This document shows, one piece after another, positions 5,411-60,400 of a stretch of 64,000 bases of DNA. Origin of the DNA: Lanius collurio (lineage: Eukaryota; Chordata; Aves; Passeriformes; Laniidae); NCBI GenBank assembly GCA_020086605.1, contig JACBWW010000028.1, forward strand, positions 8,129,540 through 8,193,539, given 5' to 3'. Under the pieces are notes generated by a model that was not told the DNA's origin, did no database searches, and saw only the letters and a program-made list of their open reading frames with translations. Each line of letters starts with the position of its first letter. Within the stretch, counting starts at the first letter, position 1. Position numbers and translations under genes: made by a program.

Positions 5411-5416
5411 CCAGAG
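5411..5416 (+). repeat. left target-site duplication of element A
   Basis: The hexamer CCAGAG directly precedes the 5' LTR. ACAGAG directly follows the 3' LTR. They match at 5 of 6 positions, consistent with an aged 6-bp duplication. Confidence 0.65.
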
Positions 5417-5707
5417 TGTGGAGGTGCCTCTCCCCTAAAGTCCCAGGGGGGGGATCCTGCAGTGTATGGGTCTGTCCCTGTCCCTGCTCCCATGTCACAT
5501 GTGCCCCATACCTGTTCCTGATTGGGTGGTTTGGGTGCCCAGGCCCAGGAAGAGAGCAAGGTCCCAGGGCTGGGGTCTGCCTGGGAACTCCAGCCATGCA
5601 GCTGGAGAAATAAATCATCCCTGAACATCTATAAAAATATCTCTTCATCTTTCCTTCCAAAGTTCATCACTGCCTTATACATGTTGTAAGGATTCCCCTT
5701 TACAACA
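5417..5707 (+). repeat. 5' LTR of element A
   Basis: It begins TGTGGAGGTGCC and ends TTTACAACA, i.e. TG...CA. It contains an AATAAA polyadenylation signal at 5609-5614. The same sequence recurs at 8260-8550, 13377-13670 and, reversed, at 17260-17553 and 19455-19751. Confidence 0.85.
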
Positions 5708-5709
5708 AA

Positions 5710-5727
5710 TGGTGGAGAATGTGGGCA
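5710..5727 (+). other. candidate primer-binding site of element A
   Basis: TGGTGGAGAATGTGGGCA starts two bases after the LTR end. Retroviral primer-binding sites begin TGG because they pair with the CCA end of a tRNA. Element C has the same first ten bases at the same offset. I could not assign the tRNA. Confidence 0.5.
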
Positions 5728-5830
5728 TTCAATCCCTGAAAAGGATTTCTAAAGGTCCAGAGTACACCGATGTGCATTGTGAGTATTTGAACTTTCTTAT
5801 TGTCTTGTTTTGTCTGTACTTTCTGACCAG

Positions 5831-5985
5831 ATGGAGAAATCAGAGGAGTTGTGGCTGAGCCACAGAGAAAAATGTACTTGGAAGTGAAAGAAATTCTAGC
5901 GAAACAAAATGCAAAACTGGACACAGGACATTTAGAACACTTTTTTAACTGGCTTTTCAAAAATTTCTTTTATGTCACTTGAGAC
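5831..5985 (+). pseudogene. gag matrix-like remnant in element A
   Basis: An ATG at 5831 opens a frame colinear with the intact reading frame of element C (19069-19356, minus). The shared text includes the short motif WLFKN followed by F-Y-V. A frameshift after about twelve codons and a TGA after the F-Y-V segment break it. Many beta- and alpha-like retroviral matrix proteins begin with a helical segment of this kind, containing 'WL' and 'F.V'. The assignment to gag rests on position after the primer site and on this loose resemblance. It is too degraded to make a matrix protein. Confidence 0.5.
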
Positions 5986-5989
5986 TTAA

Positions 5990-7365
5990 CTTTTGATGTT
6001 GGTTTTTCTGTGACTAGAGGGGACAATTTTTAGAAAGAAATCGATGAGTTGATAATGATCCAGTCAAGAAGTGGAATGGTAGTAGAGTTGATATTGGCAT
6101 CCCTTGCAAATGAAGATGCTCTCATAAAGCACATACTCGGTCCCAGTAAGACAGGGGTGCCTGCAGCAGAGGTGTCTGCGGTGGAGGCACCCAGCCCCCC
6201 TAAAAGCACCAGCCATGGAGCAGACCCCATCCCTGTATCGGAGTGCACTCCCAAGTGACAGCAGGCGAGAGAGCGACGACGAAGATTCTGGATGCGAGAG
6301 GCCTGGCCCGACCCAGGAGGCAGCCGCCCCCTCCTTGGCCCTGTTCCATCTGGGCCCCCCAGCTCCGCCCCATGCAGGTAGAGCTGGGCTGGCAGCGGCC
6401 CCCCTTCACTGCCACGGCAGAGCTCAGCTCCAGCTGCCCGGCAGAGATCGTGGTATTGAGAGAAAAGAGAAATTCCAGCCAGGCCAGGTGAGATTAACGC
6501 TGTTAGTGCTGTTAAGGTTTCTTCAGAACAGATGGGCCTGAAAATGCTGATCCTCTCCCAGAGAGAAAGGTGAAAGGACATGAAGAGACATCCTAAGGCA
6601 TAAGTCAGTAAAGACAGAAGGGCTGAAACCCTGAGAGAAAAGAAAGAGGAGATGCTTCAAACCTGGAAGCTGAAATTCTGTTTCAAAAACCCTTTGGGGA
6701 TGAACTGGACTATTGGAGGCCCTGATGTAGTTTCATAGAACACTGGAGGGGGGTAGAGCAATTGGGAGCTAAGGTGCTTCTGCATTTTCTCTTTTATTCT
6801 TTTTGCTCCAGAGTGTTTGGACTCAGTTTACCTTCACCTGGAGGGGTGTGCAGTACACCTGAGGTTGATTCTGCCTAGTGGGTGGGGGGGCATGGTCCCA
6901 CCCTTTGATGTGGACTGATCCACTGATTGAACCGACCGTAGAAAGGAACCAAGAGGGGTCAGTGTGAAGATGACCCCAGTTCCTAGAGATGAGGATTGCT
7001 CTTAGAGATAAGTGAAGGAGACCTTACTTCTGAACGGCTCAGCCTTAAATTCACACCCCATGTTAGCTCAAATCGAAACCCTCGAAAAGCTGCTGGGGGG
7101 AAAGCGGTGATTCAAGGTTAGGGACTTTTTCACTGCAAGCAGAAACCTCCCAGGCGGCTGTTTTGCTGTGATATTGAACCCACAAGAGAGCTGTCTCTAG
7201 TGGGAATGTCTCCATAAGGTCAGCAAGAAAGACTCAGAGACTCCTATCTCTTTATGTGAACTGAAAAGATTATAAAGGTGACAAACTGACTGAAATCTCA
7301 AGGCTTGTTTCTACATTATCAACGCGAAAAAGTGAGGGGAGAAAAAGTGTAAAAAAATAAAATTA
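5990..7365 (+). other. unidentified internal part of element A
   Basis: The block 6180-6301 matches the start of element B at 11911-12022 (shared text includes CCATCCCTGTATCGGAGTGC). It reads as a Pro/Ser-rich linker followed by an Arg-rich run, which could be a gag spacer. From 6300 to 6490 the sequence is GC-rich and ends in a donor-like CCAGGTGAG at 6481-6489. From 6500 to 7365 I recognise nothing, and no long frame is open. B and C have no counterpart to the 6500-7365 part. Confidence 0.4.
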
Positions 7366-7366
7366 A

Positions 7367-7484
7367 GCCTACAGCACCTGATATTCCCAGGCAGTCTCCC
7401 ATCCACATACTAACCAGGCCCGACCCTACTTAGCTTCCGAGATCAAATGAGATCAGGCGTTCTCAGGGTGGCATGGCCATAGAA
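7367..7484 (-). rRNA. 5S rRNA-like sequence (probable pseudogene)
   Basis: The reverse complement is colinear with nearly the full length (118 nt) of vertebrate 5S rRNA. The internal Pol III promoter region is well kept, including AAGCTAAGTAGGGTCGGGCC (box A area) and GGATGGGAGACTGCCTGGGA (box C area). The first bases (usual GCCTACGG) are changed. Immediately downstream on the minus strand lies a T-rich run with seven consecutive Ts, which could terminate Pol III. It sits inside element A, opposite to its transcription. There is no poly(A) tail beside it. Substitutions such as the AAATGAGATC block suggest a decayed copy rather than a member of the functional array. Confidence 0.8.
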
Positions 7485-7499
7485 GGTAAGGATTAAGTC

Positions 7500-7645
7500 T
7501 GATTCTAACTTTTGTTTCCTTCTTTTAGGTCTGCTAATAAACTTCTTAGAGTCTTTTAAGTTTGTGCCTGCTTTGCTTTCTCCTAATTCTTATGTCACAG
7601 AGGTAAAATAAGTAAGTATGAGATGATCTGAACTAAACCACTACA
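7500..7645 (+). other. junction region upstream of the cold-shock domain in A
   Basis: There is an acceptor-like pyrimidine tract with TTTTAGG near 7523-7529, then AT-rich text. It aligns only faintly with the N-terminal cargo region of B and C. The GC-rich N-terminal cargo seen in those copies is absent. Confidence 0.35.
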
Positions 7646-8015
7646 ATAATGTAAGGAAAAATTACGGTTTCTTATCGAAAAATGATACTGGAGAAAATAT
7701 TTTTGTCCATAAATCTGCTATTGTGAAAAGCAAAAGTGATGTTCCAAGCTTGGAAGAAGGAGAAAGAGTAGATTTAAAATTTGGCAAGGAAGAAAGGGCC
7801 CACAGACAGCATGTGTTACAGGCCCTGGGGGTGTCCCTGTCAAAGGCAGTAGATATGCTGGACAATATCCCCATAATCCCTGTCCTTTCCCCTCTCCCAC
7901 CTTCCCCTTTCACCCCATGCCCCTTTATTTCCCAGATTTCCCTTTCTCATCCCCCTCACAAAACCAGGCTTTTCCATTTGTCATTAATCCCTTTGCAATG
8001 CCAATGGGGGGATGA
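7646..8015 (+). pseudogene. Y-box/cold-shock cargo of element A, broken
   Basis: The 5' part (to about 7790) reads as the second half of a cold-shock domain: NYGFLSKNDTGE, then IFVHKSAIVK (RNP2-type motif), then SDVPSLEEGE. A one-base loss near 7777-7790 shifts the frame. In the shifted frame the text continues as ACVTGPGGVPVKGSRYA, which closely follows the segment just after the cold-shock domain of YBX proteins. A Pro/Phe/Tyr-rich tail then ends at TGA 8013-8015. At the position where B and C carry TAA this copy has CAG. The first half of the domain (GTVKW region) is badly decayed. Cold-shock domains of Y-box proteins bind single-stranded RNA and DNA; this copy could not make an intact one. 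Confidence 0.75.
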
Positions 8016-8259
8016 AAAGGAGGGAGGGAAGAAATTAACTGTCATTTTCTAAGATTCCAACAGGTACACAAAGGAGAAAACCCTCTCCTGACTCAGTTTC
8101 CATCTGAAGCGTGCTCAAGTCCTGTCTCCCTTCTGATGCTCCAAAGAAAATCTGTTTGGACATCTGGGGACTCAAGACAGTGGCTTCCTTTCTTTTGAAA
8201 TTGTTTTGTTGTTTATGCAACAGTTTCTAATGTTCCTTATTTAATAAGAAAGGGTGAAT

Positions 8260-8550
8260 TGTAGAAGTGCCTCTCCCCTGAAGTCCCAGGGGAGGGATCC
8301 TGCAGGGTACGAGTCTGTCCCTGTCTCTGCTCCCATGTCATCTGTGTCCCATCCCTATTCCTGATTGGGTGGTTTGGGTGCCCAGGCCCAGGAAGAGAGC
8401 AGGGTGCCAGGGCTGGGGTCTGCCTGGGAACTCCAGCCATGCGGCTGGAGGAATAAATCATCTCTGAACATCTAAAGAAATATGGCTTCATCTTTCCTTC
8501 CAAGTTCATTGCTCTCTTATATATGTTGTAAGGATTCCCTCATTACAACA
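8260..8550 (+). repeat. 3' LTR of element A
   Basis: It begins TGTAGAAGTGCC and ends TTACAACA, preceded by the purine tract AATAAGAAAGGGTGAAT. It shares the variants GTAGAAG and GTACGAGTC with the B LTR, but not with its own 5' LTR. Confidence 0.85.
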
Positions 8551-8556
8551 ACAGAG
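8551..8556 (+). repeat. right target-site duplication of element A
   Basis: ACAGAG abuts the 3' LTR and pairs with CCAGAG at 5411-5416. Confidence 0.6.
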
Positions 8557-8889
8557 TGGGAGAAGTTGCAAAAAACTCATTTGCTTAAGCTGAAATATCA
8601 AACTATTGAAGGAATATAAAAGGTAACTAAAAGACATAGAGATTTAATAAATTATGAAAAAACTGATGTAAAATTACTGGCATAAATTTAAAGAATACTA
8701 AATATTCAAAGCAGAATTTAAGAGATCTAGCTGACACTAAATTGTTGTTAGTTTAGCAAAATGCACAGACTATCTGCTGTGACCAAAAAATTTACTATCA
8801 AAAGTCAAAACGGGGTATAGAAATATCAGTCTAGTTGTCTGGGATGACCTGGGGTGGCAAAACAGATTTCCTTTTGCATAGTTATGGTG

Positions 8890-9735
8890 ACATACCTTCA
8901 TCAATGATATGCAGACATCTAGATGAAGTGAAACCTCTGGAAGTTTGCACCAAGATGAGTGGTGCAGCTGACACACCTGAGGGACAGGATGTCATCCTGA
9001 AGAATGTGGACAAGCTTCAAGAGTGAGCCCATGAAATCTTCCTGAGGGACAAAAGTGCCACAAGCAAGGTGCAGCACCAGGGTTGGAGCAATCCCCCACA
9101 TCAGTGAAGGCTGATTGAGAGCAGCCCAGACAAGAAGGACTTGGGGGTCCTTGTGGATGGAAAACTGGATAAGCCTTGGCAATGTACACCCACAACTCAA
9201 AAAGTCAACCAGGTGGCCCCAAAAGCATTGTGGCCAGCAGATGGAGGGAGATGGTGTTATCTCTTTACTCTGCTCTGGTGAGACGCCCCCCCCAGAGAGT
9301 TACACCCAGTTCTGAGGCCCTCAGCACAGGAGAGACACAGACTTGTTGGAGTGAGTCCAAAGGAGGGCCAGAAAGATGATCAGAGATCTGGAGCACCTCT
9401 TCTATGAGGAAAGACTGGAGAAGACAAGACTCCAGGATGACCTTTTTGCCATAAATCAGTACTTACAGAGCGCTTTTAAGAAAGGTGGGAACAGATTTTT
9501 TAGTAGGACCTGTTGTAACAGGACTAGGAGAGACTGAGTTTAGATAGGTGAAACACTGGAACAATTTGCCCAGAGACATTGTGGATACCCCATTCCTGGA
9601 AATGCTCAAGGTCAGATTGAATGGGCCTTTGAGAAACCTGATCTAGTCGCAGATGTCTCTGCTCATTGCACGAAGGCTGGAGGACTAGATGAGTTTCAAA
9701 GGTCCCTTCTAACCCAAACTATTCTATGATTCAAT
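8890..9735 (+). mobile_element. CR1 LINE, 3' portion
   Basis: The plus strand reads as the end of CR1 reverse transcriptase, with GAADTPEGQDVILKNVDKLQ, matching the usual 'DTPEG...I..DLDKL' block. CR1 3' sequence follows, ending in TCTAACCCAAACTATTCTATGATTC at about 9735. The frame is interrupted. The left boundary is approximate. Confidence 0.85.
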
Positions 9736-9739
9736 TTCA

Positions 9740-11885
9740 AGGGGAAAGTAATGAATAGGATGATGCTTATGATGATGATGATGATGTTGATTACTTCTTA
9801 TTATTAATGATTGTAAAATTCATTAATAGTCAAAATTATTAATAAAATAATATTGCTCTGAAAATGGTAGTCAAAAAATACAGAGGTTCCATGGCTACTT
9901 TTGCCCTACATTATCTTCTTCTGTCCTGCTTCATTTTCAAATAAACACATATTTTCTATTGTCCTCCTTCACAACAACGAATAAAGGAGGGCCCATACTT
10001 TCGTTGTAATAAAGAAGGTTTCAGAATAATATTTACTCTCAGAACTCTGCAGACACTTTCCAGTGTAATTTTGACATCCATGAAAACAATTTTTTCCTTT
10101 TTTTACAGAAATTATTTGTAGAGTTTTCAGTAAATGCAACTCTCCTATTAATTCTGTTAGTGATACATGGGAAGAGATATTACACTTAGGTCTCTCTATA
10201 TTTCCATTGCTAACAAGAATAAAGTAGCAACAAAACCCAATTTCTAAAATCACAAAAGAAAAAAGAATATTTATTAACTTCAGGAAGGTAATTTTTTGAG
10301 CAGAAATGCCAGACATACATGAACTTTTCAAAGTAAACCAACCCATCCTTTCTAATGTTGGACAGGTCTGCTTTTTAAATAACATTTCAGAATTGAGATC
10401 TTCAGATTTTCCTCAAGATCCAGGTTTTTGTGCTTCTTCTGCAAGAGGTAAAATCTGTATGTTGGAAACTACATCCTTCACACATAAATCCAACACCAGT
10501 TGAACTTGAAAAGAGCATATTAACCCTCATAAAATTCTAGTTCCACTGAAGAGTATATTTGGAAATTACAAAAAGAAAAATTATCACCTTTGAAACCATA
10601 CTTTGAAACTATAACCTCTTTAAACATTACTTTTAAAAGTACATTTGACCCTGCCATCAAGAATTTAATCAGGATATTTCACAGGTAATGACTTTTTATT
10701 TTCCAGTTCAACCATCCATAAAATGGAATCCTCTGTGTGATAACTGAAGCATTTGTAATTGGACTTTTCTTTACAACTAAGCAGAAGACACAGGGAGTAA
10801 GAAATACATTTTCAAATTTTTGTATCCTCCTTTAGCTTTAGATGGAAAACATTGTCATGAGGCAAGCATGGAATTGCCCCTCTTTTCCAGAGAGTGACTG
10901 TTCAGACCATGAAATTTGTGACTAGTGAACAGAGAAACATTGCTTGTACTAAAGAACCTTTTTTTTGTGTTTCTGGATGGCTCACAACCCTCTGTAATGG
11001 GCATATCTACCACACCAGACAGAGTAGATAGTGCTGTGAGGCGGTGTGCCTTGTCTTCAATGAGAGAGAAAGTTGAGAAACCTCAACAGAAAACACAACT
11101 GTCTGAACACAAATGTATCCCAAAACCTATCAGAAACCCTCATATATGACAGCCTTTCTTATAGGTAAGAATGAGTGGTTTGAGATGTTATTATTTTTGG
11201 TTAACTGATACTTACTGCAGGTCTGATGGCTAATGTGGTTTCAAAGAGTGTTACCTCTCAGAACATCCATTGTCTTCAGGAAGTTCTTATTGATTCCCTT
11301 CATTTAAGATTCATACCACTGTTTAGTAAAGGTTCCCATATTGACAAATATAGCTGTTACCAGCAGGCACTGAAAAAGCAGCAGAGAGGAAGAACAAGCC
11401 ACGCACCAAAGTTTGCCTGTGCATCTGTGCAGCAGCAGTAGATGCCTGTAAAAAACAGAAATATACAAATCCATGAGTCCAACCCCAGAACACAATGTAC
11501 AGTAGGCTGTCTGACCCTTATATCTGCCTCTGACACTGATCCTGACCTGGGCTTACCCCATCCCCACCCCACCATCTTTTCAGTGAGATCCCTGCTCCAT
11601 CTGCCCTGTTAGTATGCTTGACTTCCTGCTCATCTTCCAGTATGGAGCAGTGGCCCTTCACTGCCCTCTCTCAGAAATAAGGTGGGTGAAACTGAGCAGA
11701 TAGTAAGCCATAAAATTACAGAAATTAAAAAAGGACGCACTTAGACGGTGGCCAATGGGGAGGCAATCTATTTTGCGCTCACAAACATCCTCAAAAGACA
11801 GATATGTGAACCTTCATCGCCTAATGCATGAAAGGAAGTTGATAGAGGTGTTTTTTCTGGTCTTAATGAGAGTGCTTATGTGTCC
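9740..11885. other. intergenic, no gene seen
   Basis: AT-rich sequence with a short (GAT)n run near 9768-9786. No coding frame with recognisable content and no further repeat that I can name. Confidence 0.55.
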
Positions 11886-12427
11886 CTCACAACATCCTTC
11901 TGGACAAGCTGCCCAGCCCCGCTAAAAGCAGCAGCCGTGGAGCAGACCCCATCCCTGTATCGGAGTGCACTCCCAAGCAACAGCGGGCGAGAGAGCGACG
12001 ACGAAGACACTGGATGCGAGAGTGCATTCCTAGGGGTCTCTGAGGTGTTCTTACAGTGAATAAAGAAGGACAGCTAATAGAAATAGCTGCTGAAAAACGC
12101 AAAAAGTGAGCAGCGAGGGCAGTGGTGAGGGCAGCGGAGAGAGTGGTGGCAGAGGCGAGTCCCGGCTATGGCCGCCTTGCACCGCATGGCGAGCAATGGT
12201 CTGAACCCAAGCCTCACACCAAGAAAGGCAGCGGTGATTGTGGCAGTCACTATGGCGACCACAGTGAGCCACGCTGAGCAGAGCTGGAGGGTTGCAGGGG
12301 CGAGAAGGGAACCGTGCTAGCCCACAGCCTCACAGCCAAGAGCAGCAGCAGCAGCAGCGGCAGTGCCGGCGGTACAAAGCCGTGCACACGCAAGTGCCTC
12401 ACAGGGCACAGCCGTGCAGCTGTGGGA

Positions 12428-13132
12428 ATGCCCAGAAAACGTGGAACAGTCATGCGAAACTCCGGAGGGGAAGCGAGCACAGCACCAAACGGCGGTGCAG
12501 AGGTGGCCGAAGGCGGAGCAGCCGGCAGGGTCAGCGTGCAGCAGCACAGCCAGACCAGACCTGGGTGACCCCAAACGCAATCTCGAGGAGTCGAGACCTC
12601 TTGACAGGAATGTGCTGGCAACTCCGGCCCCGGCAATCCTGGCTATGGCAGCTCCAGCGCGAGGGCAAGAAAAACCAAAAGTGAAAGCAAGAACAAAGGA
12701 ACTTGGAAAAATGAAGAAGTTATCACAATTAGGGTTTTTGGAACTGTAAAATGGCATAATGTAAAGAAAAATTACAGTTTCTTCTTGAAAAACGATACTG
12801 GAGAATGTATTTTTGTCCATAAATCTGCTATTGTGAAAAATAACCCCAAAAGTGATGTTCCAAGCTTAGAAGAAGGAGAAAGAGTAGAATTTAAAGTTGT
12901 GCAAGGAAGGAAGGGCCCCTAAGCAGCATGTGTTACAGGCCCTGGGAGTGCTCCTGTCAAAGGTAGTAGATATGCTGGACAATATCCCCATAATCCCTAT
13001 CCTTTCCCCTATCCTACCTTCCCCTTTTACCCCATGCCCCTTAATTTCCCAGATTTCCCTTTCTCATCCCCCTCACAAAACCAGGCTTTTCCATTTGTCA
13101 TTAATCCCTTTGCAATGCCAATGGGGGGATGA
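12428..13132 (+). pseudogene. Y-box/cold-shock cargo of element B, interrupted by stops
   Basis: The frame starting at ATG 12428 runs without indels to TGA 13130-13132, about 235 codons. It has three internal stops: TGA 12566-12568, TGA 12602-12604 and TAA 12920-12922. Order of parts: a Gly/Ala/Ser-rich N-terminus; a Lys/Glu/Ser linker; a complete cold-shock domain from VITIRVFGTVKW to the FKVVQG segment; then a Pro/Phe/Tyr-rich tail starting with GSRYAGQYPHNP. RNP1 is NYSFF, where most Y-box proteins have GYGFI, so a Gly is lost. RNP2 is IFVHKSAI. No introns interrupt it, as expected of captured mRNA. Roughly 60% of cold-shock residues match what I recall of YBX1. The second TGA and the TAA are shared with C. 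Confidence 0.8.
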
Positions 13133-13376
13133 AAAGGAGGGAGGGAAGAAATTAACTGTCATTTTCTAAGAGTCCAACAGGTACAGAAAGGAGAAAACCC
13201 TCTCCTGACTCAGTTTCCATCTGAAGCATGCTCAAGTCCTGTCTCCCTTCTGATGCTCCAAAGAAAATATGTTTGGACATTTGGGGACTCAAGACAGTGG
13301 CTTCCTTTCTTTTGAAATTGTTTTGTTGTTTATTCAGCTGTTTCCAGTGTTCTTTATTTAATAAGAAAGGGTGAAT

Positions 13377-13670
13377 TGTAGAAGTGCCTCTCCCCTGAAA
13401 TCCCTGGGGGAGGGACCCTGCAGGGTACGAGTCTGTCCCTGTCCCTGCTCCCATGTCACCTGTGCCCCATACCTGTTCCTGATTGGGTGGTTTGGGGTGC
13501 CTGGGGCCCAGGAAGAGAGCAGGGTGCCAGGGCTGGGGTCTGCCTGGGAACTCCAGCCATGCAGCTGGAGGAATAAATCATCTCTGAACATCTACAGGGA
13601 GTATTGCTTCATCTTTCCTTACAAGTTCATCGCTGTCTTATACATGTTGTAAGGATTCCCCATTAAAATA
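13377..13670 (+). repeat. 3' LTR of element B
   Basis: It begins TGTAGAAGTGCC, contains AATAAA, and ends CATTAAAATA where sister copies read CATTACAACA. It is preceded by the same purine tract as in A. Confidence 0.85.
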
Positions 13671-13676
13671 CTCACA

Positions 13677-13945
13677 GGCTTGACATGCACCTGTCTCTAA
13701 TGGCATTTCTTACCCCATGTTAGGTAGGTGTAAAGTAATACTGAAGTTTTGTTGCTTCAGAGCCTGATTTCATTTGCTTACATAGTCTAGCTACATTGTG
13801 TTGGAAAAACTCAGCACTTTGAAGAAGCTGCTTGAATTGAAATGCAAAGATCCCATGGCACTTTTCAAAAAGATGTATGTTGGTAACTTGTGATAATGAA
13901 TTAGACAAATATTACCACTAATTGTAGAAGATCAGGAGAAAGCAA
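13677..13945. other. intergenic, nothing recognised
   Basis: Short unique-looking spacer between element B and the next CR1 fragment. Confidence 0.5.
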
Positions 13946-14495
13946 AGAGAGATGACCACAGGGATGGAGTCATCCTTTCTTGTAAGGGATGTGTAGGGTC
14001 ATGGTGAACTGGCTATAGAACTGTCTGTATGACAGAGCTCAACGGACTGCAGTGAATGGGAATACAGGTGGCTGCAGACTGGTCACCAGAAGTATTCCTC
14101 AGGACTCAATTCTAGGGCCGGTGTTGTTCAATGTATTTGTCAATGACCTGGATGCAGGGGTTGACTGCATCATTAGAGAGCTTGCAGATCATTCCAAACT
14201 GGGAGGTGCCAATGACTCTCTTATGGGACAAGAGGCCTTCCAGAAGGATCTGGGTAAATCGATGCATTGAGGAATCATCAAGGGCATGAAATTTAACAAG
14301 AACAGACACTGGACACTGTCCCTGGCATTGAGTAGTACCTGGCACAAATACAAATCGAGAGAGGAGTAGCTGGAGAGCAACCCTGCAGAAAAAGACCTGG
14401 AGGTGCTGGCTGGCAGCAGGCTCAGTGTGAGTCACCAGCGTGCCAGGGCAAACCTCATCCAGAGGTGCATCAAACACAGCCCAGGAAACCAATAT
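13946..14495 (+). mobile_element. CR1 LINE fragment (reverse transcriptase)
   Basis: The plus strand reads LGPVLFNVFVNDLDAG followed by an 'ADHSKLGG' block, matching the CR1 'LGPVLFNIFINDLD...FADDTKLGG' region. The 3' UTR and octamer tail are absent, so the copy is internal and degraded. Boundaries are approximate. Confidence 0.85.
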
Positions 14496-15915
14496 CTTTT
14501 CCTTCTCTTTATTGCTGATGCACTACTCCATGGTACCTAGGTAATTTGCATGATTGTTTTGTGTTTTGTTTTTTTCTTAAGCTTACATTGTACTTCTACC
14601 CTCACACTTACTTATCTGACCCACTTTTCACTTCCCATTTGTATTCTTTTTGGTCCTGAGGTCAATGAAATGTTATCTTTAAAACATCATCTATCTTTCT
14701 TCTGCAATGGGGTGCTTTTCACTTGTTCATTTTTGAATGAAAGTAGCTATGACCACTATGATTCAGCCTTGTGTCTGTGTGTGAGTCATACTCTAACCAT
14801 AGCCACCAGACAGTAATGCTCAGAAATTCTAAGACCCCTCCATCCTTCAACTGGACTTCTGTAGGGTTTGTGTTGGAGCAAGGCACCAACACAATGTGCT
14901 TGGGCAGATGCACTGGGAAAAGTGCATCACAGAGTGACAGATGCTTAGGGGGGTCTGTACCACAGATGATGCAGCTTTATGCTTGGTCCATTCCAGTAGT
15001 GGATGGGTATTAATCAGAAGTCTTGTGCATTCTTTTATCCTCTACAGAAGACTCAAGACTTCCTTTGCATCTGACACATGGTCTCAGGTAACTGCAAATG
15101 CTCATTACTTTTTCCTGTTTTGAAGTGCAAATCTTTTAGACAGACAGGGTCAAAGAGTTGAAAGAATGTGATACTTCATAATTGTTCTTTATTTGGAAAA
15201 GTTATTTTCCTCCCACATGAAAGACAAAAAAGTTTGACCCACATCATACACAATAATTACTGTCATTGTATTTCTGAAAAAAAAAAGTTAAAGTGATGAG
15301 GAAAACTGTCTTTTTGGTATTGTATTTCTCCACTAGAAAGGAAAGGAAGTAGAGTCTTAGACTCTCTGGGATGAACCTTCCTTAAATTAGCCCTGCATGG
15401 CTAGAAAGCCATTAACCCTACAGTACAAAAATGACTGCATCATTCATCATAGATCAAGGCTTGTAGTTTTCAAGGTTTTCATACTAAAAATACAACAATT
15501 TAATTAGGATTATAAACCGTGCAATGCTTTACTGCCATCTATTTAATATAAAAATGTCTAGATTTTGGTATGATAAATACCCATTCATTGTCTAATATCC
15601 AAAGGCATCCATTGCTGCTCATCTGTCTCTGTACAAAGTGTGATAGAATTTATAATATAAACCATTATTATTGGGATGATTAAGTACAAGGAGTTGAATC
15701 CTGATCTCTGTGCAGGAGTGTAAATGCAGAGTAACACCATTAGCTCATATGTCATTGCCCTACAATTTAATGGGAAGGCATCATCATATTTTCAGTTACA
15801 GACATGCTAGTAAGAAAGATAAAGAATATTGCATATGCCTGTAAGCTCATGATTTACAGACACCCTTACCTTAGATCCTTCTTCTCTCCAAATGGCAAAT
15901 ATGTTAAATATTGAA
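14496..15915. other. intergenic, nothing recognised
   Basis: AT-rich unique-looking DNA with only short frames that share no recognisable motif. Confidence 0.55.
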
Positions 15916-16470
15916 TCATCCATTCACAGAATTTTTGGGGCTGTAAAGGAGTTTTAAAACTCATGCAGTCCCACTTCCCTGTAATTAATAGAGTCAATTT
16001 TCACTAAACTTGGTTGTTCAAACATCCAGTCCAACCCAACTTTGAACACTTCCATGGATGGGATATCCACAGCTCCTCTGGACAACCTGTTTCAATGTCT
16101 CACCACCCACACTGCAACTGTCAAGGTGCAGCCATCAGTCAATTCCTTCTCCACCAATTCCTTATGTCTGCAATTTAGAGGTAACAATTATGTGAGGGAG
16201 CATGTCCAAGGCCTTACAAAAATTCACGTAGGTGACATACATGACTTATACCTGATCCAACAATGCAGTTGATCAACATTTGTTTCCTACAGCAGCATGA
16301 GAGCACGGGTTGCTGAAATTTTTTGACCATAATTATGGATACTGCTATACAGACCAAGAACTTCCAGTACATCACTGCAGAACACATCCTATCCCAAAGA
16401 CAGGTTAATGCGGGCACTTCCAAAATTTTTCTATTTGTCCTTATGAAGCCATTGAATGAAACCAAAAGGA
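15916..16470 (-). mobile_element. CR1 LINE, 3' portion
   Basis: On the minus strand this is CR1 3' sequence. The plus strand shows the usual reversed text 'cagtcc...caacttt.aacacttccatggatgggatatccacagctcctctggacaacctgtt'. The CR1 3' end lies at the left near the partial 'ttcacagaatttt'. It is decayed with no open frame. Confidence 0.75.
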
Positions 16471-16474
16471 TTCT

Positions 16475-17253
16475 GTGAAAACTTATTTTAGAAAATCCAC
16501 AGAATTACCAAATTAAATCCTGCTTTTTGCTAAGTAAGTCTGCAATGAAATTTTATTAAATTCTGTGGAACTCATTGTTCAGCAGAGAGAAATCTGTGGA
16601 CATAACAGCCATTCTAAACATTTATGCTGGTTCTTTAACAGGTTCAAGAGAGTTTGGTTGGTATTTTGGTAACAATTACAAAGCTTGGTAACAATTTTTT
16701 CTTGTTTTTTTTAATTAACAATTACTATCTTCTGTTTGCTTTTAAGGAAAATCACCTTCATACAAAGTGAGCTGGGAAATCTCAGACTGACTGAAAAAGT
16801 AAGAAGTTCATTTTCAGGAAGCAATCCATTTTCATCATTATGGTCACGCAGTTAAACAAAAAGCAGAGCAGAACTTCTGGACTGTAATTACCTGAATTTT
16901 ACCAAATATTAATGAAAAAAAATTCAAAAAATAGTTTCCTAAAAATGCATTTGAAGCTAAAATTATGCAGGCAGTGTTTTCATTAGTAAGTCTATGTTCT
17001 TCTGCCTCTAGAATTGGAAACAACTTGCATTCTTATGCTGTATCTCTCATCTGCAAAAGTCAGGCTTCAAATCCATACCATACATAACATTCTAATCTTT
17101 AATATATAGGTCTACTGTGTGCAGAGATAAAAGAATTACTCATAGTGCCCCAAAGAACTTCACAAAATCATAATTTGTTATTCATGTAAGTGTTATTCCA
17201 AGAAGTGCAAAGAAATCTGTAACCTTTGTGCTTTTGAAAAAAGTGGAGTAGTA
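16475..17253. other. intergenic, nothing recognised
   Basis: AT-rich spacer between a CR1 fragment and element C. No feature supported. Confidence 0.55.
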
Positions 17254-17259
17254 TAGCAT
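17254..17259 (-). repeat. target-site duplication of element C (left)
   Basis: TAGCAT abuts the left LTR edge and is repeated exactly at 19752-19757. Confidence 0.8.
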
Positions 17260-17553
17260 AGTTGTAATGCAGGGAGTCCTTACAACAATATATAAGATAG
17301 CAATAGACTTGGAAGGAAAGATGAAGCGGTATTTCTTTAGATGTTCAGGGATGATTTATTCCTCCAGCCTCATGGCTGGAGTTCCCAGGCAGACCCCAGT
17401 CATGGGACCCTGCTCTCTTCCTGGGCCCCAGGCACACAAACCACCCAATCAGGAACAGGTGTGGGGCACAGGTGACATGGGAGCAGGGACAGGGACAGAC
17501 CCGTACCCTGCAGGGTCTCTTCCCCCGGGATTTCAGGGGAAGGCACCTCCACA
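17260..17553 (-). repeat. 3' LTR of element C
   Basis: On the minus strand it begins TGTGGAGGTGCC and ends TTACAACT; the last base probably replaces the expected A. It contains AATAAA. It is preceded on the minus strand by AAGAAAGGGTGAAT. Confidence 0.85.
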
Positions 17554-17771
17554 ATTCACCCTTTCTTATTAAATAAAGAACACTGGAAAATACAGTTGGA
17601 TAAACAACAAAACAATTCCAAAGGAAAGGAAGCCACTATCTTGAGTCCCCAAATGTCCAAATAGATTTTCTTTGGAGCATCAGAAGGGAGACAGGACTTG
17701 AGCATGCTTCAGATGGAAACTGAGGAAGGGATTTTCCTTTTTGTACCTGTTGGAATCTTAGAAAATGACAG

Positions 17772-18509
17772 TTAATTTCTTCCCTCTCTCTTTTTCATCC
17801 CCCCCCACATCGGCATTGCAAAGGGATTAATGGCAAATGAAAAAGACTGGTTTTGTGAGGGGGATGAGAAAGGGAAGTTTGGGCTGGGCATATATGGGGG
17901 ATAAAGGGACATGGGATAAAAGGGGAAGGTGGGATAGGGGAAAGGATAGGGATTATGGGGATATTGTCCAGCATATCTACTACCTTTGACAGGGACACCT
18001 GTAACACATGCTGCTTAAAGGCCCTTTCTTCCTTGCACAATTTTAAATTCTACTCTTTCTCCTTCTTCTAAGCTTGGAACATCACTTTTGGGGTTATTTT
18101 TCACAATAGCAGATTTATGGACAAAAATACATTCTCCGGTATCGTTTTTCAAGAAGAAACCGTAATTTTTCTTTACATTATACCATTTTACAGTTCCAAA
18201 AACCCTAGCTGTGATAACCTTTTCATTTTTCTGAGTTCCTTTGTTCTTGCTTTCACTTTTGGTTTGTCTCACCCTCCCGCTGGAGCTGCTGCAGTCGGGA
18301 CCACCAGGGCTGGGGCCGCCAGCACATTCCTGTCATGGGGTCTGGACTCCTCGGGATCGCGTGTGGGGCCGTGCGGGTCCGGTCTGGCCGTGCTGCTGCA
18401 CGCTGACCCTGCCGGCTGCTCCGCCTTTGGCCACCTCTGCACCGCCATTTGGCACTGTGCTCGCTTCTCCTCTGGAACTCTGTGTGGCTGCTCTACGCTT
18501 TCCAGGCAT
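17772..18509 (-). pseudogene. Y-box/cold-shock cargo of element C, two in-frame stops
   Basis: An indel-free frame of 245 codons plus a final TAA (17772-17774) starts at ATG 18507-18509. It is interrupted by TGA 18333-18335 and TAA 18015-18017. Parts in order: Gly/Ala-rich N-terminus (codons 1-58); Gly/Ser then Lys-rich linker (about 60-95); cold-shock domain from VITARVFGTVKWYN through NYGFF (RNP1-type) and IFVHKSAI (RNP2-type) to the FKIVQGRKG segment (about 96-163); then after the TAA a tail of about 80 codons, AACVTGVPVKGSRYAGQYP followed by Pro/Phe/Tyr/Asn-rich text. The segment just after the domain follows the YBX 'AANVTGPGGVPV.GS.YA' text. The stretch from 18272 to 18018 alone would still encode a bare cold-shock domain if started from a near-cognate codon. 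Y-box proteins bind and package mRNA; whether this copy is translated is unknown. Confidence 0.85.
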
Positions 18510-19060
18510 TCATGCAGCTGCACGGCTGCGCCCTCTGAAGCGTTCGCGTGTGCGCGGCTTTTACCGCCGGCACTGCCGCTGCTGCTGCTGTCGTCGGCTG
18601 TGTGGCCCTGGGCTGGCATGGCTCCCTTCTCGCCCCCACACCCCTCTGGCTCTGCTCGGTGTGCCTTACCACAGTCGCCATAGCGACTGCCACAATCGCC
18701 GCTGCCTTTCTCAGTGTGAGGCTCAGACCGTCACTGGCCACGCGGTGCAGGTCGGCCATAGCTGGGACGCGCCTTGGCCGCCACTGCCCTCGCCACTGCC
18801 TCAGGGCGAACATGGCCAGGCCCGCTCTGCCGCGCTGCTCCTGGCTCCACTCCTGCCCCCTCCGGTTTCCCGCCGGCTCTGCTCCCGCCGTGCCTGGCCT
18901 CACTGGTGCTCCCACGTGCAGGAGCTCCCTCACGGCCACCCGCAATGCCTTCAGCGCCCACGGCCAGGGCCACGCGGTCTCTGAGGTGGTGGAGAAGCCC
19001 ACTGCAACATGCTCGCTCCTCGACCACGTGTTCGCTGCTGATACAGCAGCGAGACACAGC
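18510..19060 (-). other. GC-rich segment between gag remnant and cargo in C
   Basis: It has high GC and many CpGs, unlike the AT-rich surroundings. The part 18600-18825 matches B at about 12115-12350, including a conserved 'GGCAGTCNCTATGGCGAC' block; the rest has no counterpart in A or B. It could be the 5' untranslated or N-terminal part of the captured mRNA. Frames are open on both strands because of base composition, so I make no protein call. Confidence 0.5.
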
Positions 19061-19068
19061 TGATGCTG

Positions 19069-19356
19069 CTAAACAGTCTCTGAAATCAGGTAATATTCAC
19101 GGAAGTAGTCTTGCACATTTTTTGATTCAGAAATTAACTGTGTCCAAACATTCTTCCAAAAGTCCTTGGTAAGAATCAAATCCCAAGAAACATAGAAGTT
19201 GTTTTTAAACAGCCATGCCAAAAAGTGTCTTAATTCTTTCTGAACTTGAATTAAACTAAAGTCTACATATTGCTGTTCCAGAACCTTTTTTAGCTTAAGG
19301 TAAATGTCTCTTTGTGTTTCACACAGCCATGAGTCCTTCCGTGAGTCCTCCATCAT
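19069..19356 (-). CDS. gag matrix-like frame of element C
   Basis: This is an intact frame of 95 codons beginning Met-Met at 19356, about 80 bases inside the primer-binding site, where retroviral gag normally starts. It is rich in Leu, Lys, Phe and Trp, with WLFKN near residue 49 and FW-V-L spaced after it, loosely like the helical N-terminal matrix domain of beta- and alpha-like retroviruses. It ends at a TGA just before the GC-rich captured segment. Such a retained 5' gag piece would keep RNA packaging signals in the genome of a defective element. The resemblance is weak and by eye. No capsid or nucleocapsid follows, so it cannot form particles alone. Confidence 0.5.
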   Translation of the reverse strand: MMEDSRKDSWLCETQRDIYLKLKKVLEQQYVDFSLIQVQKELRHFLAWLFKNNFYVSWDLILTKDFWKNVWTQLISESKNVQDYFREYYLISETV

Positions 19357-19434
19357 TCAGAGATGGGACATCAAAACAAAAGCAAGAAGAGATATCTAGA
19401 GTTACTCACGAATTATCTTCTCCAGGGATTGTTT

Positions 19435-19452
19435 GCCAGCATTTCTCCACCA
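19435..19452 (-). other. candidate primer-binding site of element C
   Basis: Two bases inside the 5' LTR the minus strand reads TGGTGGAGAAATGCTGGC. The first ten bases are identical to the same site in element A. Confidence 0.5.
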
Positions 19453-19454
19453 TT

Positions 19455-19751
19455 TGTTTTAGTGTGGGGAATCCTTACAACAGTATATAAGACAGTGATG
19501 GACTCAGAAGAAAGGATGAAGCGATACTTCTGTAGATGTTCAGGGATTATTTTATTTCTCCAGCTGCATGGCTGGAGTTCCCAGGCAGACTCCCAGTCAT
19601 GGGACCCTGCTTCTTCCCGGAGCCCCAGGCACCCAAACCACCCAATAAGGAACAGGTATGGGGCACACGTGACATGGGAAGCAGGGACAGAGGCAGACCC
19701 ATACCCTGCAAGGTCCCTCCTCCCAGGATTTCAGGGAAAGGCACCTCCACA
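19455..19751 (-). repeat. 5' LTR of element C
   Basis: On the minus strand it begins TGTGGAGGTGCC and ends CTAAAACA, i.e. TG...CA. It is 297 bp with an AATAAA near its 3' part. Confidence 0.85.
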
Positions 19752-19757
19752 TAGCAT
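19752..19757 (-). repeat. target-site duplication of element C (right)
   Basis: An exact TAGCAT copy of 17254-17259 abuts the 5' LTR. Confidence 0.8.
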
Positions 19758-42699: not shown

Positions 42700-43260
42700 A
42701 CGTCTCAAAGAAAGGACTGTGCATGACAACTAATTGGCATAGGAAGCAAGAAACCTGTCTTCAGTGCAGGAAAACCCATCCATAAAAAGGACCCCCCTCA
42801 AGCTTGGGCAGTGGATATGGATGTCCATGTCCCAGGACCACGGACATCCCATCATCTGCATGAATGATGGAACCAGGACTGACATCCCATCAGCTGGGTG
42901 GACACTGGAAGCAGGACTGCCATCCCATTATCTGGATCCATACTGGACCAGGACTGATATCCCATCAGTGACATGGATGCTGAAACCAGGACTGACATCC
43001 CATCAGCTGGATCATGGCTGGTATCAGGAGTGATTTCCTATCATCTGGATTGATGCTGGAACCAGGACTGCTGGTCTCTCTTTCTCTCCCTTCTCTTTCA
43101 CCCTACCCTTTTCTCCCAGATCCTCTGCCATGTGTATATAGGGTAGACTAGTCTAACATAGCAATTTCCATACCAAGTGTTTAATTTACTAATAAAACTT
43201 GATGAGTTTTTGCAGACCCTGTGACTTTTGTTGTTCCTTTTCATCATGAGCATTTACGAG
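42700..43260 (+). mobile_element. probable LTR with a 38-bp repeat array in U3
   Basis: About six tandem units (42844-43070) precede a pyrimidine-rich stretch, a TATA-like GTGTATATAGG (43133-43143) and an AATAAAAC (43191-43198), followed by a T-rich 3' end. This order (U3 repeats, TATA, AATAAA) is that of an LTR. Outer ends and family are not resolved. Confidence 0.5.
42844..43070 (+). repeat. 37-38-bp minisatellite, about six units
   Basis: Units start at 42844, 42882, 42920, 42957, about 42995 and about 43031. Each contains a variant of CATCCCATCATCTGGAT followed by ACCAGGACTG. Confidence 0.85.
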
Positions 43261-57400: not shown

Positions 57401-60400
57401 CATAGCAATAAGGAGAGACTGTTACATCTTCAAAATACTTTTAAAACTAGCTTTTTACCATTTTGTCTTGTTCCACTTAGCAGGACTAACTGAAAAATTG
57501 AAAAAATAAACCAACACAAATTTTTCATTCTATCACCTGCCAGAAAATATATTTTCTACAAAGTTCAAAGTGGCTTTACCTTTTTATACTGAGGTTGACT
57601 AAGAACAGAGGTAGGATGAAATCGCACTTTCTTCTCCTTTGGTGCAGTTAACACCAGGCTCTCTCTGTCTACATGCACAAGATGGGGATACATCCCGGCC
57701 ACTAAGGCAGCTTTGACTACAGCCCAGTTTTCAGAGTTAGCATTAACATCTCTAATATCAGCTCCTCCTCTGGCTCTAACAAAACCTGAAAAAAGAAAGA
57801 GGTCAAAACTATGTTATATTTGTTCGTATTTAAGATCTACTTTTTTGCTTCTCAAAAGGAATTTGAAAAAAAGGAAGTGAAATAAACAACAAATTAGTTG
57901 CATTTTTCACAACTGCCAACACTAACAGTACCAAGAAGAAACCATTACACTGAAATCCTTCCTGGTAAGGGGTTTCATACTAACGTAGAACAGAATTTCT
58001 TTTTACAATACTTCTTTACTTAATAAAATATTAAACATAGTGTAGTTTAAATGCAATTGCAACTTGCTTACAGCTTAGCATGAGCGAGCGAGCCCCTGCT
58101 CAAAACCTAGTGTAGGTGAATTTTAAATGAACTGTTTGTTAGCATGAATGGCTATGCAGGGAAAGAAACAGAGAAAGACAGGATACCTTTGGATAAAGGA
58201 TCAGACCTTGGAGGACCCCAAGGTTGGCTCAAGCTGGAATGTAAGAGCAAATAAGGAACTGCCCACACTGGACATGGAGAAAGAATCCAACGAGGCAGTA
58301 AAAACCCCAGACCATAAATTGCCACTACATCAAGAGGAGCATGCAAGACACAAACAGGGCACATGAAGATCGGGTGCACTGACAGTAAGGGTATAAAGGC
58401 CCAGGGATTTCCTCACTCAGGACACTCTCCAGGGACATCCAGCTTGAGCTGAAATTAACTGACTCTGCCTCAGAACCTAGGGTCTGAACTTGTTTTAGTA
58501 ACTGCCTCATGAAAAAATTTACTAGAACATAAAACCTCAAGGAAACATGCCTCATGCTGCAACACAGCAGGCTGGTGAACAATGACAAGGCTTTCAGTTA
58601 TGCTAGCAGTGTCCCAGGGTGAGCACGTTTCCTCACCCTAGCATGTCCACCATGCCCAGCACGAATATGTACCAGTCTTTTCTAACCTAAGGAAGAAAAA
58701 TGACAAGCGAACACTCTTCTTGTTACAATTTGTATACACTTAACTCTAAAATTATGTTAGAACTTTTTCCAATATATTTACCTGAGGCTCTAAGCTGCCC
58801 AAGCAACTGTGTTCTCATTCCTGCAATGATTTGCATTGTGGCTTGAGACAGGAAATTCTTTTCACAGAAGGCTCTCTCCCAGCCATCACTGCGTGCCTTC
58901 TGCCATGCCTGTAAAGAATAATTTTTAACACTTGCCTATTAATTTAAGTATCTAAAATTAAAAAATGCATAGGTTTAAAAATTACATTTAGATCAATAAA
59001 ATTAACCTAAGTATCAAACCTGATTTTTTTAAGTACTAGATTTTTTTCCTCATTCCCTAACCTAAACATAATGATAATTATGTTATTTTAAGCTCATGAT
59101 GTTATTAAAGAGATCGTTATGTCAAGATCCCTATTTTAGGTTACCCATGTAACAGGATATAAAGCAGCATCTCGCTAGAACTTCCAAAATTTAACCAGGT
59201 TTGAAAAGATCAGACAAAATGTGTTCCCTCAGAAATCTTGTGAGTCCAATACAAAGGAAAGCCATAGTCTACCACTCCACACCCAGCTTGGTTGGTGCAT
59301 CATTTACTCCGACGTGCGATCTCTTGTGCACAGCCCTGGCTCTGAAAGGATACCTGAAAAGCCCTGAGAAGCACCATGTGGTCGCTGAACGTTCCTGCAG
59401 TGAAACGCTTCCTACACAGCATGGCTGCACGCTTCTGGGAGGCCAGCGCCGGGAGCACAAAAGGGTCCCGGTAGGCCAGAGCACAGGCAATGGTAAGAAC
59501 AGGGTCCAGGCACTTCAAAACAACGGCGCACAGCACCATTTTACCAAGGTGTGGCTCCACTGGCAATTCAGTGAGATGATAACCAAGCTCAGTGAGATCT
59601 TCCCAAGGGTCCATGGCATCTATAGCCTGTTGGAAAAAAGAGAAAAGGCGGGGATGTGGGGACAAGGGGCAGAAGGGGAAAGGGGACAAAATTAATTACG
59701 ATGAAAGTAGAAAGGATACGAATATTGGACATTACCTAGGCTTGCTCCCAAACACTAAAGAAGCGAGTCAAACTAGTTTCATTTCAGGACAAGATTTTAT
59801 AGTAGTCCCTTCCCTTAACATGGGAAAATACATACACACACACAGCAAAATGGAAATAAACAAAAATTCAAAACATCCTTAAGTAACTGAATAAGCCTTT
59901 CAGTATAATTACAAGTCAGTAAGATATGTTACCACACCACAAATACTGATTAAATACAACTCCCATCGAAATCTATTCCTCTGCTGACCTTGAGCATTTG
60001 CAGAGCATTTTTCACAATTAAAGCTGGTGGAGGATCAGGAGCTTTCATAAGAAAGTCAACAACCGGACAATTTCTTGGAGCCAGAAGTTTTGTGTGCAAA
60101 CAAAGCTCCTGCAAGTTAAAAAAAAAAAAAAAGTACTATTAAGGTTTGGGAAAAAGAAAATAGATACACACTTTTTTGGAGTTATTAGTATAGTCTGATG
60201 ATAATATATTTTTTTAAAGTTACAACTTCTAAGTGAATACACACCTGAAGTGGCATTCTTAGAAGTTCTGGAGTCTGAAATTCCAACATGTTCTCAAATC
60301 GGAGCTTACTGAAGAGACGAAAACAGACTCCAGGCTGACAGCGTCCAGCCCTGGAAAATAAAATATTGGAAGCTGTGAAAATTAGATTTTTTTTTTTTTT

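Follow-up and report, generated by a model that had tools for sequence, protein, structure and literature searches.

We identified, in a 64,000-nucleotide stretch of the Lanius collurio genome (contig JACBWW010000028.1, positions 8,129,540 to 8,193,539, the whole of which we call the window), decayed members of a compact, non-autonomous long terminal repeat (LTR) retroelement family, whose one protein is a fusion of a matrix-like N-terminus with the cold-shock domain (CSD) of a Y-box protein. We think it likely, from sequence comparisons, that the family is a non-autonomous retroelement that captured a Y-box mRNA, and that its fusion protein serves the element's own RNA in cis. A preceding sequence-only reading of the window had proposed that a Y-box gene stands in place of most viral genes, and that the product spread as a non-autonomous endogenous family. 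Both proposals are borne out elsewhere in the genome, where young elements, at about 2.3 kb, contain a single frame and have no room for pol, and where at least 150 CSD matches are present. We also refine this reading: among young copies, the Y-box cargo continues the reading frame of the matrix-like N-terminus.

We searched the assembly from which the window derives (1,096,898,245 bases in 2,132 contigs) with the Pfam CSD profile, obtaining 1,213 first-look candidates, which are not equivalent to confirmed copies. All 150 of the candidates that were scored lay above the Pfam cut-off, setting the floor given above. Using the matrix-like part of a fetched copy as the query, 1,268 candidates were found, with all of the 150 scored again matching. 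We examined 32 CSD loci, comprising the 8 best-scoring, 16 picked for long frames, and 8 others high on the list, from which long-frame loci were omitted because they had already been fetched. An LTR pair surrounded the CSD in 27 of these loci, a matrix-like part lay upstream in 26, and 25 had both; the corresponding numbers for the last group of eight alone were five, four and four. Conversely, eight loci taken from the matrix-part search (L033 to L040) all contained a CSD downstream, four of them being already in the set of 32. A script identified exact 6-bp duplications beside TG/CA ends at 13 of the 32 loci (the case of L020 was checked), and TG...CA ends were readable in several fetched copies as well as in the window copies, with one exception noted below. 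Frames of at least 499 codons running through the CSD were present in 13 of the 32 loci, and these are the same 13 that stand out among the 150 scored CSD matches; 16 of the 150 matrix-part matches lie in frames of this length, 13 of these being the same copies. The longest frame among these 150 matches, of 518 codons, surrounds G000:C14:22067622-22067945.

The sequence-only reading had named two outcomes as speaking against it, namely cargo lying outside LTR boundaries in other copies, and separate processed pseudogenes with their own poly(A). The first is answered by the 27 loci with cargo inside an LTR pair. The second supposes that each cargo is an independent processed pseudogene inside an unrelated LTR element, for which the lack of introns in the cargo might be taken as support. 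This is refuted by the position of the cargo between LTRs, behind one N-terminus, in many copies: a matrix-like part is found upstream at the frequency given above, and both parts form a single fused frame in 13 of the 32 loci. In the three window copies, moreover, the cargo has an identical 3' border, and runs of more than five A bases and AATAAA are absent before the 3' LTR, so that we give such an origin next to no credence.

Fifteen of the 32 loci have an element of 2.30-2.33 kb. In young copies, the LTRs span about 245 bases and the leader about 90, and a short 3' stretch carries a polypurine-like tract; a primer-binding site of the TGGTGGAGA type, which we take to be tRNA-Ala-like, follows the LTR, and AAGAAAGGGTGAAT precedes the 3' LTR. 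Unbroken young copies contain a single open frame of 503-508 codons from an ATG, which encodes, in order, the matrix-like start (residues 1-110), a middle rich in alanine, proline and arginine, the CSD, and a tail. Because two LTRs and this frame fill the 2.30-2.33 kb, no space is left for pol, and neither pol nor env, which an autonomous retrovirus would have, is held by the elements. Paired LTRs, target duplication, primer-binding site and polypurine tract together constitute the anatomy of an LTR retroelement. Kimura two-parameter (K2P) distances between paired LTRs ranged from 0.000 to 0.156 across 27 pairs, some of which are partial and short (in L002, L010 and L032, 103-139 bases), indicating long-lasting activity of the family that continued until recently.

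The fusion protein was under purifying selection during the spread of the family. In 12 open-frame copies, the ratio of nonsynonymous to synonymous change (pN/pS) was 0.30 in the matrix-like part (0.16-0.55; 95% bootstrap intervals over codons, here and below) and 0.29 in the CSD (0.13-0.72), compared to 0.75 in the middle (0.59-0.99) and 0.55 in the C-terminal tail (0.30-1.12). These values bear on the possibility that the Y-box part is a passive passenger, with the LTR, primer site and packaging signal sufficing for spread in trans and the open frames merely reflecting youth. Such a passenger would be consistent with the absence of a 499-codon frame in 19 of the 32 loci, and with the decay of the window copies without clear constraint. 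It does not account for ratios whose intervals lie below 1 in two separate parts of the frame, with a far higher value in the stretch between them, nor for the retention of RNA-contact residues in all 32 loci, across lineages whose N-termini are only about 30-50% alike, and we regard it as unlikely.

Within the window, the identity of the cargo was established most clearly in copy 3, in which the CSD (18015-18272, minus strand) matched YBX1 in PDB (E 2e-21) and the Pfam CSD family (2.9e-17). The three regions that had been read as having common LTR and Y-box sequence are confirmed by BLAST and are not due to chance. A piece of copy 1 downstream of the domain (7740-8012) matched YBX2 and YBX1 with E values between 7.6e-07 and 3.3e-06, the lowest being to YBX2, and contains, in its spacer, VTGPGGVPVKGSRYA, which is YBX2 text. 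As YBX2 and YBX1 score within 2 bits of one another over this post-domain text, and YBX1 leads by 5 bits within the CSD, these scores settle no parent gene. CSD identity to YBX1 varies with lineage from 52 to 74% over 82-89 residues, being highest in L003 and L027. The CSD frame is continuous and free of introns in copies 2 and 3 and in the fetched loci, and we infer a host origin for the Y-box gene from the CSD match.

The element CSD carries the features of the Y-box group, the long YB loop and RNA-stacking residues, with W65, Y72, F74, F85, H87 and K118 (YB-1 numbering) retained in 32 of 32 loci. Four of these, W65, F74, F85 and H87, are described as stacking on RNA bases in PMC7226217. Cellular YBX1/2/3 likewise have a CSD with all four stacking residues, and YBX2 has the spacer found in copy 1. 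In contrast, the charged C-terminal domain with which YB proteins are described (PMC7226217) is not found in the element protein, neither as charged clusters nor as an extended domain; in its stead is a tail of about 80 residues, judged by reading to be rich in proline and aromatics.

Several observations weigh against this account of a selected, RNA-binding fusion protein. Five of the 32 loci have no LTR pair (L006, at a contig edge, L023, L025, L026 and L030), and six have no matrix-like part. D83, Y99 and E121 of YB-1 are replaced in most loci, so that the binding preference may differ from that of YB-1. The name "matrix" rests on position, as neither a protein family nor a fold matched the N-terminus significantly. 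The 12 copies used for pN/pS were selected for long open frames and high CSD scores, which favours conserved CSDs; likeness in the matrix-like part played no part in this choice, yet equal constraint was found there. Finally, CSD changes between copies 2 and 3 are near neutral (9 nonsynonymous over 196.5 sites, and 4 synonymous over 46.5), as is expected after insertion.

We constructed trees from the 26 loci that hold both the matrix-like part and the CSD, and identified a conflict in the main split. In the matrix-like tree, L001, L003, L004, L005, L028 and L031 stand apart from the rest (support 1.000, branch length 0.88), while in the CSD tree the separated group consists of L001, L002, L003, L004, L005 and L008 (0.987), L028 grouping with L010 (0.887) and L031 placed near the split (0.825). 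The conflicting loci are accordingly L002, L008, L028 and L031. Copy 1 of the window is mixed in a similar way: its matrix-like part lies at a K2P of 0.679 from that of copy 3 and is more like that of L001 (74% over 43 residues), but its cargo is close to that of copy 3 (K2P 0.086). These patterns fit exchange between lineages by template switching, and the simplest account of the sequences would be a single capture with later recombination.

The window contains, within 14 kb, three regions with common LTR and cargo sequence, amounting to five LTRs and three cargo copies, with copies 1 and 3 bounded by LTRs and copy 2 truncated at its 5' end. All three are old and decayed. Their cargo is intronless, as had been read, but in none does an unbroken Y-box frame start at an ATG: copy 1 has lost its front half and its frame is broken, and stops interrupt the cargo frame of copies 2 and 3. 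Similarly, the motif set previously noted (GTVKW with RNP1- and RNP2-like motifs) is complete in copies 2 and 3, but copy 1 starts behind GTVKW.

Copy 3, on the minus strand, preserves the order of 5' LTR, primer-binding site, matrix-like frame, G+C-rich stretch, CSD, proline/aromatic-rich tail, polypurine-like tract and 3' LTR. The 5' LTR (19455..19751) differs from its own 3' LTR (17260..17553) by a K2P of 0.155, and the target duplication ATGCTA is exact on both flanks (17254-17259 and 19752-19757). Over 96 columns, the matrix-like N-terminal frame (19072..19356) has 88% identity to the beginning of the L013 fusion frame. It is followed by the G+C-rich front half of the cargo (18333..18800), the CSD frame (18018..18332), which matches YBX1 (37 of 69 residues identical) as well as the Pfam CSD, and the post-CSD text (17775..18014). 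The interval 18270-18800 has a G+C content of 0.67 and an observed/expected (o/e) CpG ratio of 0.70; the corresponding values for the CSD are 0.34 and 0.45.

Copy 2, on the plus strand, begins with a left remnant common to copy 1 (11912..12022, found by BLAST), and no 5' LTR was found by BLAST within the window. Its G+C-rich cargo front half (12130..12604) aligns to copy 3 from 18800 down, with a G+C content of 0.64 over 12130-12660. The CSD frame (12605..12919) is open over 105 codons, with 36 of 69 residues identical to YBX1, and is followed by post-CSD text (12923..13129) and a 3' LTR (13377..13668) with 89% identity to the 5' LTR of copy 1. CpG o/e is 0.62-0.70 in the cargo front of copies 2 and 3 (12130-12660 and 18270-18800) and 0.0-0.14 in the 3' LTR and 3' parts of copy 3; the high ratio is odd for an old insertion.

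Copy 1, also on the plus strand, has a 5' LTR (5417..5707, TGTGG...ACAACA) with 90% identity to 8260-8551 and a K2P of 0.113 to the 3' LTR with which it pairs (8260..8550). The flanks, CCAGAG (5411-5416) and ACAGAG (8551-8556), agree in five of six bases. A primer-binding site, TGGTGGAGAATGTGGGCA (5710..5727), starts two bases past the LTR, with similar letters at the matching position in copy 3 and in fetched copies. The decayed matrix-like coding region (5827..6255) has internal stops and matches the copy 3 frame by BLASTP (36%, E 4e-11), and the stretch between it and the cargo (6190..6300) is 93% identical over 111 bases to copy 2 (11912-12022). A segment of about 1.3 kb unmatched in copies 2 and 3 (6301..7645) replaces the front half of the cargo, leaving a truncated Y-box region (7646..8015), with the CSD rear and post-CSD text in a broken frame, that is 92% identical to copy 2. 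The polypurine-like tract AAGAAAGGGTGAAT (8246..8259) adjoins the 3' LTR, as it does in each of the other two window copies. The unmatched segment contains a full-length 5S rRNA match (7366-7484, minus strand, model positions 1-120, 88.6 bits), perhaps a retrocopied 5S or a 5S-derived repeat, and a candidate solo LTR nested in copy 1 (6866-7599) has TG...CA ends with a 5-bp GAGGT on both sides; it is one of three such candidates with 4-5 bp repeats, which may be due to chance.

Endogenous retroviruses (ERVs) of class II, which are betaretrovirus-like, are marked by a 6-bp target duplication. The putative assignment of this family to class II made from sequence rests on this feature. Such duplications are found in window and fetched copies, being exact in copy 3 and agreeing in five of six bases in copy 1. 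TG...CA ends are present, except that the 3' LTR of copy 3 ends in CT. The N-terminus gives no significant match to a Pfam or PDB family or fold in window or fetched copies. The matrix-like part of copy 3 had a best PDB sequence match with an E value of 0.9 and a best Pfam match of 0.21, and a low-confidence helical model had no clear match.

With regard to mechanism, we suggest that, on one or a few occasions, a spliced Y-box mRNA was captured by an LTR element, which lost pol and env, and that a related ERV would provide reverse transcriptase and integrase in trans. The fusion protein is probably used in the element's own replication, acting in cis on its own RNA; the CSD would bind the transcript, protecting or packaging it, and the matrix-like part may carry it into assembling Gag particles. 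A more specific proposal, that the host CSD took over the RNA handling of Gag, is one that we hold tentatively, as possible though not the probable case. The matrix-Y-box fusion would then pick and escort its own RNA into the particles of another virus, making the element a parasite with its own packaging factor, and template switching would have swapped old and new N-termini and CSDs between lineages. Non-autonomous LTR elements are usually thought to contribute cis signals only, and a large family keeping one host-type RNA-binding domain, joined to a Gag-like start and constrained by purifying selection, offers a testable case of a parasite supplying its own trans-acting factor. The literature lends this mechanism indirect support: in PMC6040738, YB-1 is described as supporting the production of murine leukaemia virus (MLV) vector and mouse mammary tumour virus (MMTV) in an RNA-dependent manner, helping to sustain human immunodeficiency virus (HIV) RNA levels, coming down together with Rous sarcoma virus (RSV) and MLV integrase, and binding retroviral promoters, including that of RSV. 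The family also bears on the use of Y-box proteins by retroviruses (MLV, MMTV and HIV).

A further possibility is that the main role of the element's Y-box protein is in transcription, as a factor acting on the element's own LTR via the classical Y-box CTGATTGG; this would be compatible with the cis-acting fusion protein favoured here. The motif is present in four of the five window LTRs and in 22 of 26 LTRs from 13 fetched copies, and the title of reference 57 in PMC7226217 reports the cloning of a Y-box protein as a factor of the RSV enhancer. These occurrences nonetheless represent one inherited feature, the window holding 5 matches against 3.5 expected by chance, and a later analysis, as reported in PMC7226217, refuted CTGATTGG as a specific YB site. 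Since the motif is no longer held to be specific, we view this role as a weaker rival or an addition, and improbable as the main function.

Other features of the window were also noted. A DExH helicase exon (59300-59689, minus strand; HA2_C Pfam E 6.7e-15, with DHX36 the best match in PDB) presumably belongs to YTHDC2, a helicase gene that may contain the elements or end upstream of them. Two stretches (9300-9720 and 14050-14300) we take, by eye, to be CR1-like 3' ends, fitting a bird or other sauropsid. A tandem array with units of 38, 75 and 113 bases occupies 42843-43071.

Acute transforming retroviruses carry host cDNA in frame behind Gag, and are replication-defective and helper-dependent, with an oncogene as cargo. 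The Gag fusion and helper dependence of these viruses resemble what we propose here, and the oncogene cargo differs; we know of no large germline family of such viruses. ENS-1/ERNI of chicken, an LTR element, lacks pol and has one long frame, a layout like that of the present family. As has been proposed for ENS-1, the fusion protein could have been adopted by the host, with copies retained for a host function, and the similar order of LTR, one frame and LTR would agree with this. The many dispersed insertions with their own duplications, and LTR distances down to a K2P of 0.000, point instead to recent transposition rather than to a few kept genes, and we consider adoption very unlikely. By term search, "cold" was absent from the text of an ENS-1 paper (PMC3362752) and from the main text of PMC6523648, and "cold shock" from PMC11009239, the latter two being papers on bird LTR elements. 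Among the matches listed in searches of open-licence papers, no title or abstract described a cold-shock cargo in an ERV; Repbase or Dfam may list the family under a name that makes no reference to the cargo.

The capture of host mRNA by ERVs has been documented in CrocERV29 and CrocERV31, which took up KIT-ligand and nectin3, respectively (PMC4299795). Like the elements described here, these hold a frame derived from host mRNA, in several copies and under purifying selection, with nectin3 replacing env in CrocERV31 and KIT-ligand gained without loss of a viral domain in CrocERV29 (PMC4299795). In contrast to both, the elements of this family encode, besides an RNA-binding cargo, nothing but the matrix-like start to which it is fused. 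While mRNA capture by ERVs was already known, three features are new here: the kind of cargo, a sole protein in which it is joined in frame to a matrix-like start, and the scale of the family.

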